Notes under the pieces: model-generated
Databases searched by the model: none
Told to the model about the DNA's origin: nothing
Seen by the model: the letters and a program-made list of their open reading frames with translations, nothing else
From: Methanoculleus methanifontis
GTDB taxonomy: Archaea; Halobacteriota; Methanomicrobia; Methanomicrobiales; Methanoculleaceae
Reading direction: 5' to 3'
Assembly: GCF_030464365.1 (NCBI RefSeq)
Contig: NZ_VCYI01000019.1
Span: 1-45,543 of the forward strand
Length of the DNA: 45,543 bases
Program-made: the position numbers and the translations under genes
Shown here: in pieces, positions 14,513 through 17,573 of the stretch
How positions within the stretch are numbered: position 1 is the first letter of the stretch
Layout: the number at the start of each line of letters is the position of its first letter

Positions 14513-16096
14513 TCAGGCCGCCCCGGCCGACTCCTCCGTATCCGCAGTCACCTCGTGGCGGTCGAGCGCCCACCCGACCAGCAGCGCGGCCGCCGAGAGG
14601 GGGAGGGCGATGACGAGCGGGTCCACGTCCTGCCACGGGGCGGAGAGGACCGCCGGCACGCCGAAGAGGAGGTTGGAGAGCCCGAGCGCCGCCGACTCCT
14701 TGACGTGCACGAAGGCCGTCCACGCGAACCAGGCCGCCGTTCCGGTGGCGAGACTCATCTTCGCCGCCCGGAGCGACGGCCTGCTGCTGTACATGGCGTG
14801 GGCGTAGGTCGGCAGGAACGCCGATGCACAGAGGCCCATGAACATCGCCGTTGCCCGGGCGATGATGCTGCCGGGCATGATGAAGGCGAGAACGATGCTC
14901 ACGACGATCATGGTGACGGTCGCCAGCCGGATCGGCCGCATCGTCGCCTTCTCCGTTCCGGTGCGCCGCATGACGTCGAACCCGAGCGACGTTCCCATCG
15001 TATGAAAGAGGGAACTGAGCGTGGACATCGCCGCGGCAAGGAGGGCCAGCATGAAGACGACGACGAAGAGGTCCGGCATCGACGCGTTGATGAAGTTCGG
15101 GATGATCGTGTCGACGTTGCCGTTGGTGGCCGCCGCGAGCGCGGTCACGCCTTCCGTCTGGTAGAAGTAGACGTTCGTGAGCGCCCCGGCCGTGAAGGCG
15201 ACCCCGGTCATCATCAGGATGAACGGCCCGCCGACGAGAACCGCACGGTTCAGCGCCCGGCTGTCTTTGACGGTCATGAACCGGACGACCAGCTGGGGCT
15301 GCGCCAGCACCCCGATGCCGACCCCGAGAACGAGTGTCGTCACCAGCGTGAGCCAGATGGACGACCCGAACGCCGGCATGGACGCCCACCCGGTCATCCC
15401 CCCGGCGGCGAGCGCCTCCGGGACGAGGTCCGACATCCCGGCAAGGACGGTATGCGCCTCGACGACGCCCCCGAGCCGGATGTAGGTGAGCACGAGGAGG
15501 ACGGTCATCCCGACGAGCATGATCCCGCCCTGCAGTGCGTCGGTGTACATGACGGCGATGAGTCCGCCGATAATCACGTAGAGGGCGACGATCGCGGCGA
15601 AAGCGAGGAGCGCAGTGGTGTAGGGGATCTGCAGCGTGCTCGTGATGAACTGGGCGCCGCCGATCAGGATCGCCGCCGTGTACAGCGGCATGCCGAGGAC
15701 GATGACGAGTCCTGCGGCATACTGCATGAACGGCGACCCGTAGCACTTCCCCATCAGGTCGGGGAAGGTCACGGCGCGGAGTTTGTGCCCGATCTGGCGG
15801 GTCCGTTTTCCGAAGAAGACGAACGCGATGAAGATTCCGAGCCCGATATTGAGGACGGTCAGCCAGATCATCCCCATGCCGAGCTGCGCCGCAACCCCGC
15901 CGAACCCGACGATGGCGGAGGTGCTGATGAAGGTCGCGCCGTAGGAGAGGGCGAGAACCACGGGATGGATCTTCCTCCCGGCGACCATGTAGTCGTCGCT
16001 CTCTTTTGTCCGGCGGTAGCCGAGGTAGCCGAGACCGATGATGATGACAAGATATACCAGTGTCATTGCGACGAATAGCCGCGTATCAACTGCCAT
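14513..16096 (-). CDS. Sodium/solute symporter (SSS family)
   Basis: A 527-aa polytopic membrane transporter with about 12-13 helices. The LYGYRR-like start (GYLGYRRTKESDDYMVAGRK) and GATFISTSAIVGFGGVAAQLG are hallmarks of the SSS/PanF-PutP family, which import organic solutes with Na+. The solute is not evident. Helix 5-6 GGLIAVMYTDALQGGIMLVG is also family-typical. The start overlaps the stop of the 42-aa gene upstream by 11 bases, so the two are co-translated. Confidence 0.9.
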   Translation of the reverse strand: MAVDTRLFVAMTLVYLVIIIGLGYLGYRRTKESDDYMVAGRKIHPVVLALSYGATFISTSAIVGFGGVAAQLGMGMIWLTVLNIGLGIFIAFVFFGKRTRQIGHKLRAVTFPDLMGKCYGSPFMQYAAGLVIVLGMPLYTAAILIGGAQFITSTLQIPYTTALLAFAAIVALYVIIGGLIAVMYTDALQGGIMLVGMTVLLVLTYIRLGGVVEAHTVLAGMSDLVPEALAAGGMTGWASMPAFGSSIWLTLVTTLVLGVGIGVLAQPQLVVRFMTVKDSRALNRAVLVGGPFILMMTGVAFTAGALTNVYFYQTEGVTALAAATNGNVDTIIPNFINASMPDLFVVVFMLALLAAAMSTLSSLFHTMGTSLGFDVMRRTGTEKATMRPIRLATVTMIVVSIVLAFIMPGSIIARATAMFMGLCASAFLPTYAHAMYSSRPSLRAAKMSLATGTAAWFAWTAFVHVKESAALGLSNLLFGVPAVLSAPWQDVDPLVIALPLSAAALLVGWALDRHEVTADTEESAGAA

Positions 16097-16214
16097 CCCG
16101 TTGCTCCTCCACGCCGTTGTTCCAGTTCAAGAGGCCGTACACTAAGCATGCGAGCGTGAACGCGAGCGCAAGCAGATACCCAACCCAGATCGCGGGATCA
16201 GTAATGCCGAACAT
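16086..16214 (-). CDS. Symporter small accessory membrane protein, 42 aa
   Basis: A 42-codon gene: MFGITDPAIWVGYLLALAFT followed by LACLVYGLLNWNNGV and EEQRDGS. It has one membrane helix and a short charged tail, beginning with the F-G-I-x-D-P-x-I-W pattern seen in small proteins encoded ahead of SSS symporters in methanogens. AGGTGG lies 7 bases before the ATG. Its TGA lies inside the start of the symporter gene (11-base overlap). It probably binds or stabilises the transporter; this is inferred from the arrangement. Confidence 0.82.
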   Translation of the reverse strand: MFGITDPAIWVGYLLALAFTLACLVYGLLNWNNGVEEQRDGS

Positions 16215-16613
16215 AACAAACCACCTGGCGGTAACGGAAAAACCGTTACGTTACACGGGAACTCAGCAGAAGGGCCGGTTCCCTATCTAAAGAAGAATGC
16301 GTTCTGCGCAAACGTGCACCGCACGTTCGGACAGGTCTGCACTGGCGTGCAACAGGACTCTACATGGTTGCCAATCATCGAGTACCTAAACACCTTCTCG
16401 ATCTATTGTATTTAAACCATCCGATTTTCTGGCACCTCAGGCGGAGGGAGATCGCACTACTGCCGGATTCCTCCCATTTACGTGCCCAGATACGCTACCG
16501 GCTGCAACAGCAGCGGCAGGTCCCGCTCGCGGCCATCCAGAACGGTGATATGCACGGACGGCGTACCGGATGTTGTTTCGGGGCGGGACGAAAGCCGTAA
16601 GGCGAGGTGAACC
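16215..16613. other. 399-base intergenic region between divergent genes
   Basis: On the minus side it carries the symporter leader with a stem-loop at 16231-16249 and a possible TATA (CTTTAGATAG near 16287-16296). On the plus side a TATA-like GTATTTAAACC lies near 16406-16416, about 200 bases before the next gene, implying a long leader. No gene is convincing; a short minus-strand frame near 16478 overlaps the next gene and looks like a shadow. Confidence 0.4.
16231..16249 (-). promoter_or_regulatory. Perfect hairpin in the symporter leader
   Basis: GTAACGG-AAAAA-CCGTTAC (7-base arms, 5-base loop) lies 17-35 bases upstream of the small accessory gene start, just before its AGGTGG ribosome-binding site. 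It may be an operator or an RNA hairpin that affects translation. Confidence 0.45.
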
Positions 16614-17573
16614 ATGGACGGCACTGCAGAGATCGTTTCGGCGGCACTGGGCCTCTCGTTCGAACTCCTGGTTCGGACGGTCCCGATCGTCGTCGCCGGC
16701 GTTTTGATCGCCGAAGTCCTGATTGCTCTGCGGGTCACCGACAAAATCGCGAGCGTCGCCTACCCGGTCACGACGTTCTCCCACCTCCCCCGGGAATGCG
16801 GGGCGAGTTTCCTCCTGGCGTTCGTCTCGCCGCAGGCGGCGGACGCGATGCTCGTCGACTACCACCACAGGGGGATGATCGGGAGACGCCAACTCGTCGT
16901 CGCGGCGCTCATCAACTCCTTCCCGTCCGTCGTGATGCACTGGCGCTACCTCATCCCGGTCTACGTGCCGCTGCTCGGGGCCTTCGGTCTGATCTACTTC
17001 ACGATTCTGATGGGTATCGGGTTTCTCAAGACCGGGATCGTCATGGCGGCCGGGAGGGTGCTGCTCCCGGAGGTTCCGGCGTCCGGGCCGCCGGAGAAAC
17101 CTTCCGGAGGGGCGCTGTCCGTCCGCGAAGCCCTGCGGGCCTCTCTCGGACCGACCGCGAAGACCCTCCGCCGCATCCTCGGGATCATGATCCCGACGAT
17201 CGTCATTGTGGCGTTTCTGATCGAGGCGGGCGTCTTCGACGCCGTCGCGGCGCACCTGGAGGGCGCGGGCCGGCTCTTCCCCATACCCCCCGAGGGGCTC
17301 GCCATCGTCGCCGCGAAGTTCGGGTCGTACGTCGCCGCGGCAAGCCTTGCGTCCGGGCTGCTTGCGGCGGGGGATATGACCGGCAGGGATATCGTCATCA
17401 CGCTGCTCGTGGCGAACCTGCTCACCAGCGTCGTCACCTACCTGCGATGGCTCGGGTCGTTCTACGCCGCGATCTTCGGGCCGAGGCTGGGTGCCGAGAT
17501 CATGATCCTCTCCGTCGTCCTCCAGGACGGCCTCCTGCTGGCGGCGATCTTCCTGCTGGCCTGGTTCTGGTGA
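16614..17573 (+). CDS. Nucleoside-recognition (gate) domain membrane protein
   Basis: A 319-aa membrane protein with about 8 helices. The segments PRECGASFLLAFVSPQAADAM and SFPSVVMHWRYLIPVY resemble archaeal gate-domain (nucleoside recognition) proteins, whose transported substrate is not known. A second gate-like half (FGSYVAAASLASGLLAAGDM, RDIVITLLVANLLTSVVTYL) suggests two repeats. GAGGTGA lies 5 bases before the ATG, a strong ribosome-binding site. Downstream, 186 bases separate it from the SRPBCC genes. Confidence 0.75.
   Translation: MDGTAEIVSAALGLSFELLVRTVPIVVAGVLIAEVLIALRVTDKIASVAYPVTTFSHLPRECGASFLLAFVSPQAADAMLVDYHHRGMIGRRQLVVAALINSFPSVVMHWRYLIPVYVPLLGAFGLIYFTILMGIGFLKTGIVMAAGRVLLPEVPASGPPEKPSGGALSVREALRASLGPTAKTLRRILGIMIPTIVIVAFLIEAGVFDAVAAHLEGAGRLFPIPPEGLAIVAAKFGSYVAAASLASGLLAAGDMTGRDIVITLLVANLLTSVVTYLRWLGSFYAAIFGPRLGAEIMILSVVLQDGLLLAAIFLLAWFW

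Follow-up and report, generated by a model that had tools for sequence, protein, structure and literature searches.

Attenuation by leader peptides, a textbook case of gene control in bacteria, relies on the coupling of transcription to translation, and archaea also couple these two processes. The enterobacterial phe attenuators, namely the pheM leader of pheST and the pheL leader of pheA, have a short translated ORF with Phe codons and a hairpin at its end, placed ahead of pheST or other phenylalanine genes. TnaC arrest works at termination with tryptophan as the ligand; there, the end of the peptide lies at the regulatory site, and the stalled ribosome can mask the site of the termination factor, Rho. 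Across known leader peptides, the frame and the end of the peptide matter most. A conserved uORF leader upstream of amino-acid genes has also come out of a comparative RNA search, in the ilvB-II motif of Corynebacterium, which is bacterial and concerned with branched-chain amino acids (PMC10272879). We found no archaeal leader-peptide attenuator in the accessible parts of the open-access literature, in which a Ribo-seq paper on M. mazei mentions uORFs in general terms (PMC11456600).

We analyzed a 45,543-nt stretch of the archaeon Methanoculleus methanifontis (the window), one contig of the 2.6-Mb genome, and propose, with a probability of about 0.78, that the leader of its ssa/symporter operon acts as a translated, phenylalanine-sensing, ribosome-mediated attenuator. 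The putative leader shares its layout with the enterobacterial phe attenuators, including a place ahead of pheST in some genomes. It differs from them in being archaeal, in having as its main target a symporter with a small accessory protein, and in usually lacking a U-run terminator after the hairpin, with no alternative fold found when SD accessibility was compared. Like a TnaC-type leader, it has a peptide end at the putative regulatory site, where a ribosome that stalls could cover the site of a termination factor. Unlike that leader, it has a Phe-rich tail and a pheST target, and the factor would be FttA instead of Rho. With the Corynebacterium motif it shares a conserved uORF upstream of amino-acid genes and its detection by comparative RNA search.

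The genes of the operon and the ribosome-binding site of the first are as follows.

16086 to 16214, minus strand: ssa, small accessory protein gene (NF045580, 42 aa; profile match 62.2 bits, cut-off 35).
14513 to 16096, minus strand: sodium:solute symporter gene, 527 aa (Pfam SSF, 172 bits).
16221 to 16226, minus strand: Shine-Dalgarno (SD) sequence AGGTGG of ssa, from the sequence.

The ssa ORF encodes a membrane protein of 42 aa (MFGITDPAIWVGYLLALAFTLACLVYGLLNWNNGVEEQRDGS). As the first-pass annotation had described, its stop lies inside the symporter start; the overlap is 11 nt long (ATGGCAGTTGA), with the symporter ORF starting at 16096. That annotation had also called the gene easily missed by gene finders, a claim that holds less now because the NCBI has a curated model for the protein, which is already a named family (NCBIfam NF045580, "symporter small accessory protein"). 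The match spans profile positions 1-33 of 33, above the curated cut-off, and the adjoining gene encodes an SSF symporter, so that both marks of membership are present. The family covers the protein only, not the leader. The expectation that the small protein is kept beside symporters elsewhere was borne out, as ssa is present in 66 of 100 related genomes and in 146 of 392 genomes of the phylum, and it forms with the symporter gene a conserved, mostly overlapping pair across relatives. The search of the relatives gave 67 ssa matches, one of which (G094) was not fetched, though that genome has a match to the leader model R1 described below. We found no solved structure for the 42-aa protein and only distant relatives among those for the symporter, too remote to assign its substrate by homology. 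In a family of a different order, genomes such as G128, G315, and G405 have two to three ssa genes each; some of these genes are separated by about 2 kb, a hint that related symporters may form tandem arrays. On the other side of the leader, the divergent gene at 16614-17573 (plus strand) encodes a protein with the nucleoside-recognition domain Gate of Pfam (35.7 bits) and has its intergenic region in common with the leader promoter.

Upstream of ssa lies a Phe-rich ORF with a hairpin, P1, at its end. Both stand just upstream of the hairpin that the first-pass annotation had listed (here P2) and were absent from its list.

16409 to 16416, minus strand: TATA box TTTAAATA, 38 nt ahead of the ATG of the leader ORF, from the sequence (start of the leader transcript putative).
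16383 to 16387, minus strand: SD-like AGGTA of the leader ORF, from the sequence.
16283 to 16378, minus strand: leader ORF, 31 codons plus stop, MIGNHVESCCTPVQTCPNVRCTFAQNAFFFR and stop, from the sequence and comparison.
16283 to 16297, minus strand: Phe codons, Arg codon, and stop (TTC TTC TTT AGA TAG), from the tail comparison.

The leader peptide of the window would end in Phe-Phe-Phe-Arg-stop, and across the order the leader ORF mostly has 21-39 codons and a Phe-rich tail. Requiring an ATG-started upstream ORF of 15-42 codons with at least two Phe among the last six residues and Phe at position -2, we found a Phe-tailed leader upstream of ssa in 77/81 loci of Methanomicrobiales versus 2/111 in other orders; this count omits two rows, L117 from the other orders and L112 from Methanomicrobiales, the leader of which was read as L253. 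The four failures within the order are a locus with a changed leader stop codon (L006), one with no leader seen (L064), one masked upstream by N in which the tail AFFFR and its stop are still visible (L032), and one without ATG (L107), which is the same locus as L425 and has TTG there. In one genus the ssa leaders have no ATG, and 5/5 loci (L399, L401, L408, L410, and L425) keep a TTG at a distance of 22 codons from the stop. Within the genus of the window, the middle of the leader ORF (window positions 16298-16350; L015, L036, L038, and L040) is built from repeats of a module resembling TGCACGNNNGTGCAGAAC, with expansion and contraction by whole codons.

The reading frame of the leader is kept. 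Between the SD-ATG pattern and the TTTAG landmark, the spacing is divisible by three in 39/41 measured cases, over 13 lengths of 57-111 nt; the strict SD-ATG pattern is missing in 36 of the 76 loci with the landmark. L066, L067, and L069 were dropped as duplicates, and L006, L032, and L064 were omitted from the comparisons of 63 loci. In 54 of these 63, a TATA-like box (7-8 of 8 positions) stands ahead of the leader ATG at a distance of 36-57 nt; in 2 of 63, one occurs between the leader stop and ssa. Because the boxes precede the leader and rarely fall between it and ssa, the leader most likely lies within the transcript.

The hairpin at the end of the leader ORF was examined by covariation and folding, and it anchors a covariance model, R1.

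16257 to 16283, minus strand: hairpin P1, GGGAAC/GTTCCC, from covariation and minimum-energy folds.
16250 to 16300, minus strand: match of the leader covariance model R1, 67.1 bits; the window sequence is among the 32 used to build R1.

P1 opens with the final G of the TAG that ends the leader ORF, so that the stop codon forms the base of the hairpin. Among 53 sequences, the pairs at columns 30-56 and 31-55 occur as A-U, G-C, and C-G or U-A. In the 32-sequence set, P1 has 14 double-change cells versus 4.2 (sd 1.6) in shuffles, and 0/500 shuffles were as high, a comparison in which related sequences may exceed such shuffles without structure. The covariation score was 0.229, and sliding reduced it to 0.120 or less; alignment A3, which has one-base shifts in the 3' arm, was excluded from the counts. 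P1 also lies within the minimum-energy fold of 63/63 loci. A search of the curated RNA families of Rfam gave no match between 16080 and 16620 with E values allowed up to 10, which rules out a T-box or another known RNA family there. Judged by these comparisons, the conserved RNA element is P1, tied to the Phe-rich leader ORF, and not P2.

R1, which has 51 positions and was built from ssa leaders only, was then used to search whole genomes. It matched in 59 of 100 related genomes; of 392 genomes of the phylum, 54 had a match, and every one of these belongs to Methanomicrobiales. The putative leader unit also stands before other PHENYLALANINE genes. One match (L249) precedes pheS and pheT, identified by NF003210 (616 bits, cut-off 350) and TIGR00471 (585 bits, cut-off 283), and three (L248, L251, and L252) precede a gene for a LivK-type binding protein (Pfam Peripla_BP_6, 159-188 bits). 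Two of these three matches come from genomes with no detected ssa, G294 and the incomplete G086 (62%). The family of the pheS-leader genome has R1 matches in 76 of 108 genomes. From its approximately 95 match rows we fetched 40 loci, covering most genomes with at least two matches and some with single matches: 20 lie before ssa/symporter (L397 and L422 by reading), 15 before pheS, and 5 before livK. Phe is at position -2 in 40/40, and 35/40 have an in-frame ATG, while the other five, all ssa leaders, have a TTG that gives 22 codons. An HMM check of 3 of these 15 pheS genes confirmed 3/3, and the totals come to 16 pheS loci (pheS-pheT) and 8 livK loci. The leader is not general for pheS and is absent from it in most of the order, as 0/30 pheS loci from other genomes match R1. 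Five weak R1 matches (E 0.18-0.86; L326 and L332-L335) were read and judged to be chance; L327, L328, L336, and one unfetched match of this kind were left unread. Two loci show decay: L250 is a relic with a changed leader stop codon beside a degenerate ssa, and L422 still has the leader and ssa, with the symporter frame broken.

An exact scan for TTCTTTAGNTAGGGRACC-N(6-18)-GKTYCC in 84,980 species genomes returned 30 stretches, with titles naming Methanoculleus, Methanoregula, other Methanomicrobiales, or unassigned "Euryarchaeota archaeon" genomes. The Phe tail is present in 30/30, and downstream lie ssa by pattern in 27 and a symporter start in 3 (one leader partly masked). A second leader peptide in other orders, with tails such as ETLKYGTC and a stop, was considered and rejected, since by eye these stretches are TATA boxes followed by TGYTAACA repeats. 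Also by eye, several ssa loci of other orders (L162, L174, L179, and L182) have, about 60-90 nt upstream of the gene and in place of a leader ORF, a TATA box and then repeats such as TGCTAACA...TGTTAAC; repeats of this type look like operators for a DNA-binding regulator.

A Phe-codon leader thus stands before genes of three families that are unrelated to each other and include phenylalanyl-tRNA synthetase, which argues for attenuation that senses Phe-tRNA. Comparison of sequences supports this reading through the leader ORF, its Phe tail, the conserved frame, the covariation of P1, and the recurrence of the candidate unit before symporter, LivK-type, and pheST genes. The leader has the parts of a leader attenuator: a short ORF with a start, an SD sequence, and a promoter, and Phe codons near its end. 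Genes controlled in this way make, charge, or import the amino acid, which here applies to pheS-pheT in 16 loci. The first-pass annotation had suggested dosage control of the transporter complex at the RNA level. Control at the RNA level is very likely, and we replace dosage by a switch that responds to phenylalanine, since pheST and the gene for the LivK-type binding protein are preceded by this leader as well.

We infer that the leader is translated, that Phe-tRNA is the signal, and in which direction the operon responds. Transcription from the promoter upstream of the leader ORF would give an mRNA with about 180 nt before ssa, on which a ribosome would translate the short leader peptide with its Phe-rich last codons. 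When charged Phe-tRNA is scarce, the ribosome would stall on the Phe codons, directly before P1; when Phe is plentiful, it would reach the stop codon in the base of P1 and depart. These two ribosome positions would set high or low expression of downstream genes for acquiring Phe or charging its tRNA, presumably high under starvation. With Phe-tRNA charging as the signal, the predicted cargo of the symporter is phenylalanine or one of its precursors, for example phenylacetate.

The chief alternative is nascent-peptide arrest, in which a nascent F-x-F-(R/S)-stop would stall the terminating ribosome when free phenylalanine, or a compound related to it, binds as the ligand, and tRNA charging would play no part. 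Fixed positions, as opposed to a free run of codons, are what such a peptide would need, and among 52 distinct tails Phe is at -2 in 52/52 and at -4 in 47/52, with Arg or Ser at -1 in 48/52. Some leaders also have few Phe, with just 2 in the last 6 residues in 9/81 leaders of the order. This pattern of positions is compatible with TnaC-type arrest and is no proof of it. Position -3, however, takes seven residue types (Phe, Ser, Ile, Leu, His, Thr, or Tyr), Phe is enriched across the whole tail, and a pheST target better suits tRNA charging. We therefore regard arrest on a free ligand as improbable, if still the most serious competitor of Phe-tRNA sensing.

Less probable still is that the locus is an RNA element only, in which the U-rich tract and P1 would serve processing, termination, or protein binding and the Phe codons would be a by-product with no purposeful translation. 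Some of the conservation does lie at the nucleotide level, since the codon at -2 is invariably TTT (64/64 rows), and the TTTAGNTAGGG core is fixed. Phe codons are TTT in 33% of cases in the leaders versus 7% in the symporter gene (within the genus, with the -2 codon left out), and in the leader body the share of synonymous changes is only a little above expectation (0.27-0.33 observed versus about 0.24 expected), a weak signal in the codon-substitution test. Against an RNA element alone stand the ATG, SD sequence, and frame kept over the 13 leader lengths, tails that vary in sequence yet remain Phe, and the phenylalanine genes downstream.

The hairpin that the first-pass annotation took for the control element lies between P1 and the SD sequence of ssa.

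16231 to 16249, minus strand: hairpin P2, GTAACGG-TTTTT-CCGTTAC, from the sequence and a genome scan, with support at the genus level only.

This perfect GTAACGG/CCGTTAC hairpin is present ahead of the ssa ribosome-binding site, as had been stated. It is the sole match in the window, with 0 expected from 100 shuffles, and its sequence is found once in the 2.6-Mb genome. The RNA at 16210-16290 folds better than shuffles (z -2.33; 3/200 as good). Within the genus P2 is kept, with one-sided breaks in several genomes. Its cognate arms outpair swapped arms across all 53 sequences (0/2000 permutations as good), but outside the genus the arm pairing is not significant, with 229/2000 permutations at least as good, nor is it after dereplication (185/2000 permutations). 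Conservation of the hairpin is thus supported within the genus only, and the lack of significant pairing outside the genus rules P2 out as the conserved RNA element. That P2 by the ribosome-binding site and translational coupling set the dosage of ssa and the symporter is the least probable explanation of all, since the hairpin, though perfect and unique in its genome and accompanied by a widespread gene overlap, has one-sided breaks in some genomes of the genus and does not pair significantly outside it, and the leader ORF and P1 would be left unexplained.

The output step is the least certain part of the phenylalanine attenuator model. We did not assign the leader to the classical terminator/antiterminator attenuators because a U-run terminator after P1 is rare: TTTTT follows within 15 nt in 4/63 loci and is absent there at the window locus, which rules out an intrinsic terminator as a general feature. 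Release or masking of the ssa SD sequence by unfolding of P1 was also ruled out, as its accessibility is unchanged. The mean was 0.39 with the RNA free from the leader stop versus 0.38 with the RNA free from 12 nt beyond it, and we saw no toggle between the two ribosome positions (6 up and 4 down of 63 loci). Comparing SD accessibility alone between these positions, we found no alternative fold.

A different output is possible, and we put it forward tentatively, at less than even odds: the Phe codons (UUY) may double as a U-rich site for the archaeal termination factor FttA/aCPSF1. A ribosome stalled on these codons would shield them from the factor, and transcription would continue; once the ribosome departed, they would be exposed. 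Counted from the RNA end, FttA has a preference for U-rich sequence at positions -30 to -36 and for U at -23 (PMC11616081), and it has been proposed that ribosome and termination factor exclude each other (PMC11616081 and PMC8116511). We favor a ribosome-versus-FttA switch among outputs because the Phe codons are U-rich, TTT is enriched among them, FttA has this preference, and such exclusion has been proposed. The U-rich codons of phenylalanine would also make it the natural amino acid for a switch of this kind.

With a Phe leader present throughout the order, a hairpin that covaries, and pheST among the targets, ribosome-controlled gene expression in archaea, possibly including control of termination, becomes directly testable. 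The leader also predicts a substrate class, phenylalanine or a precursor, for the symporter partnered by the small accessory protein. R1 itself provides a search model with which further such leaders may be found.
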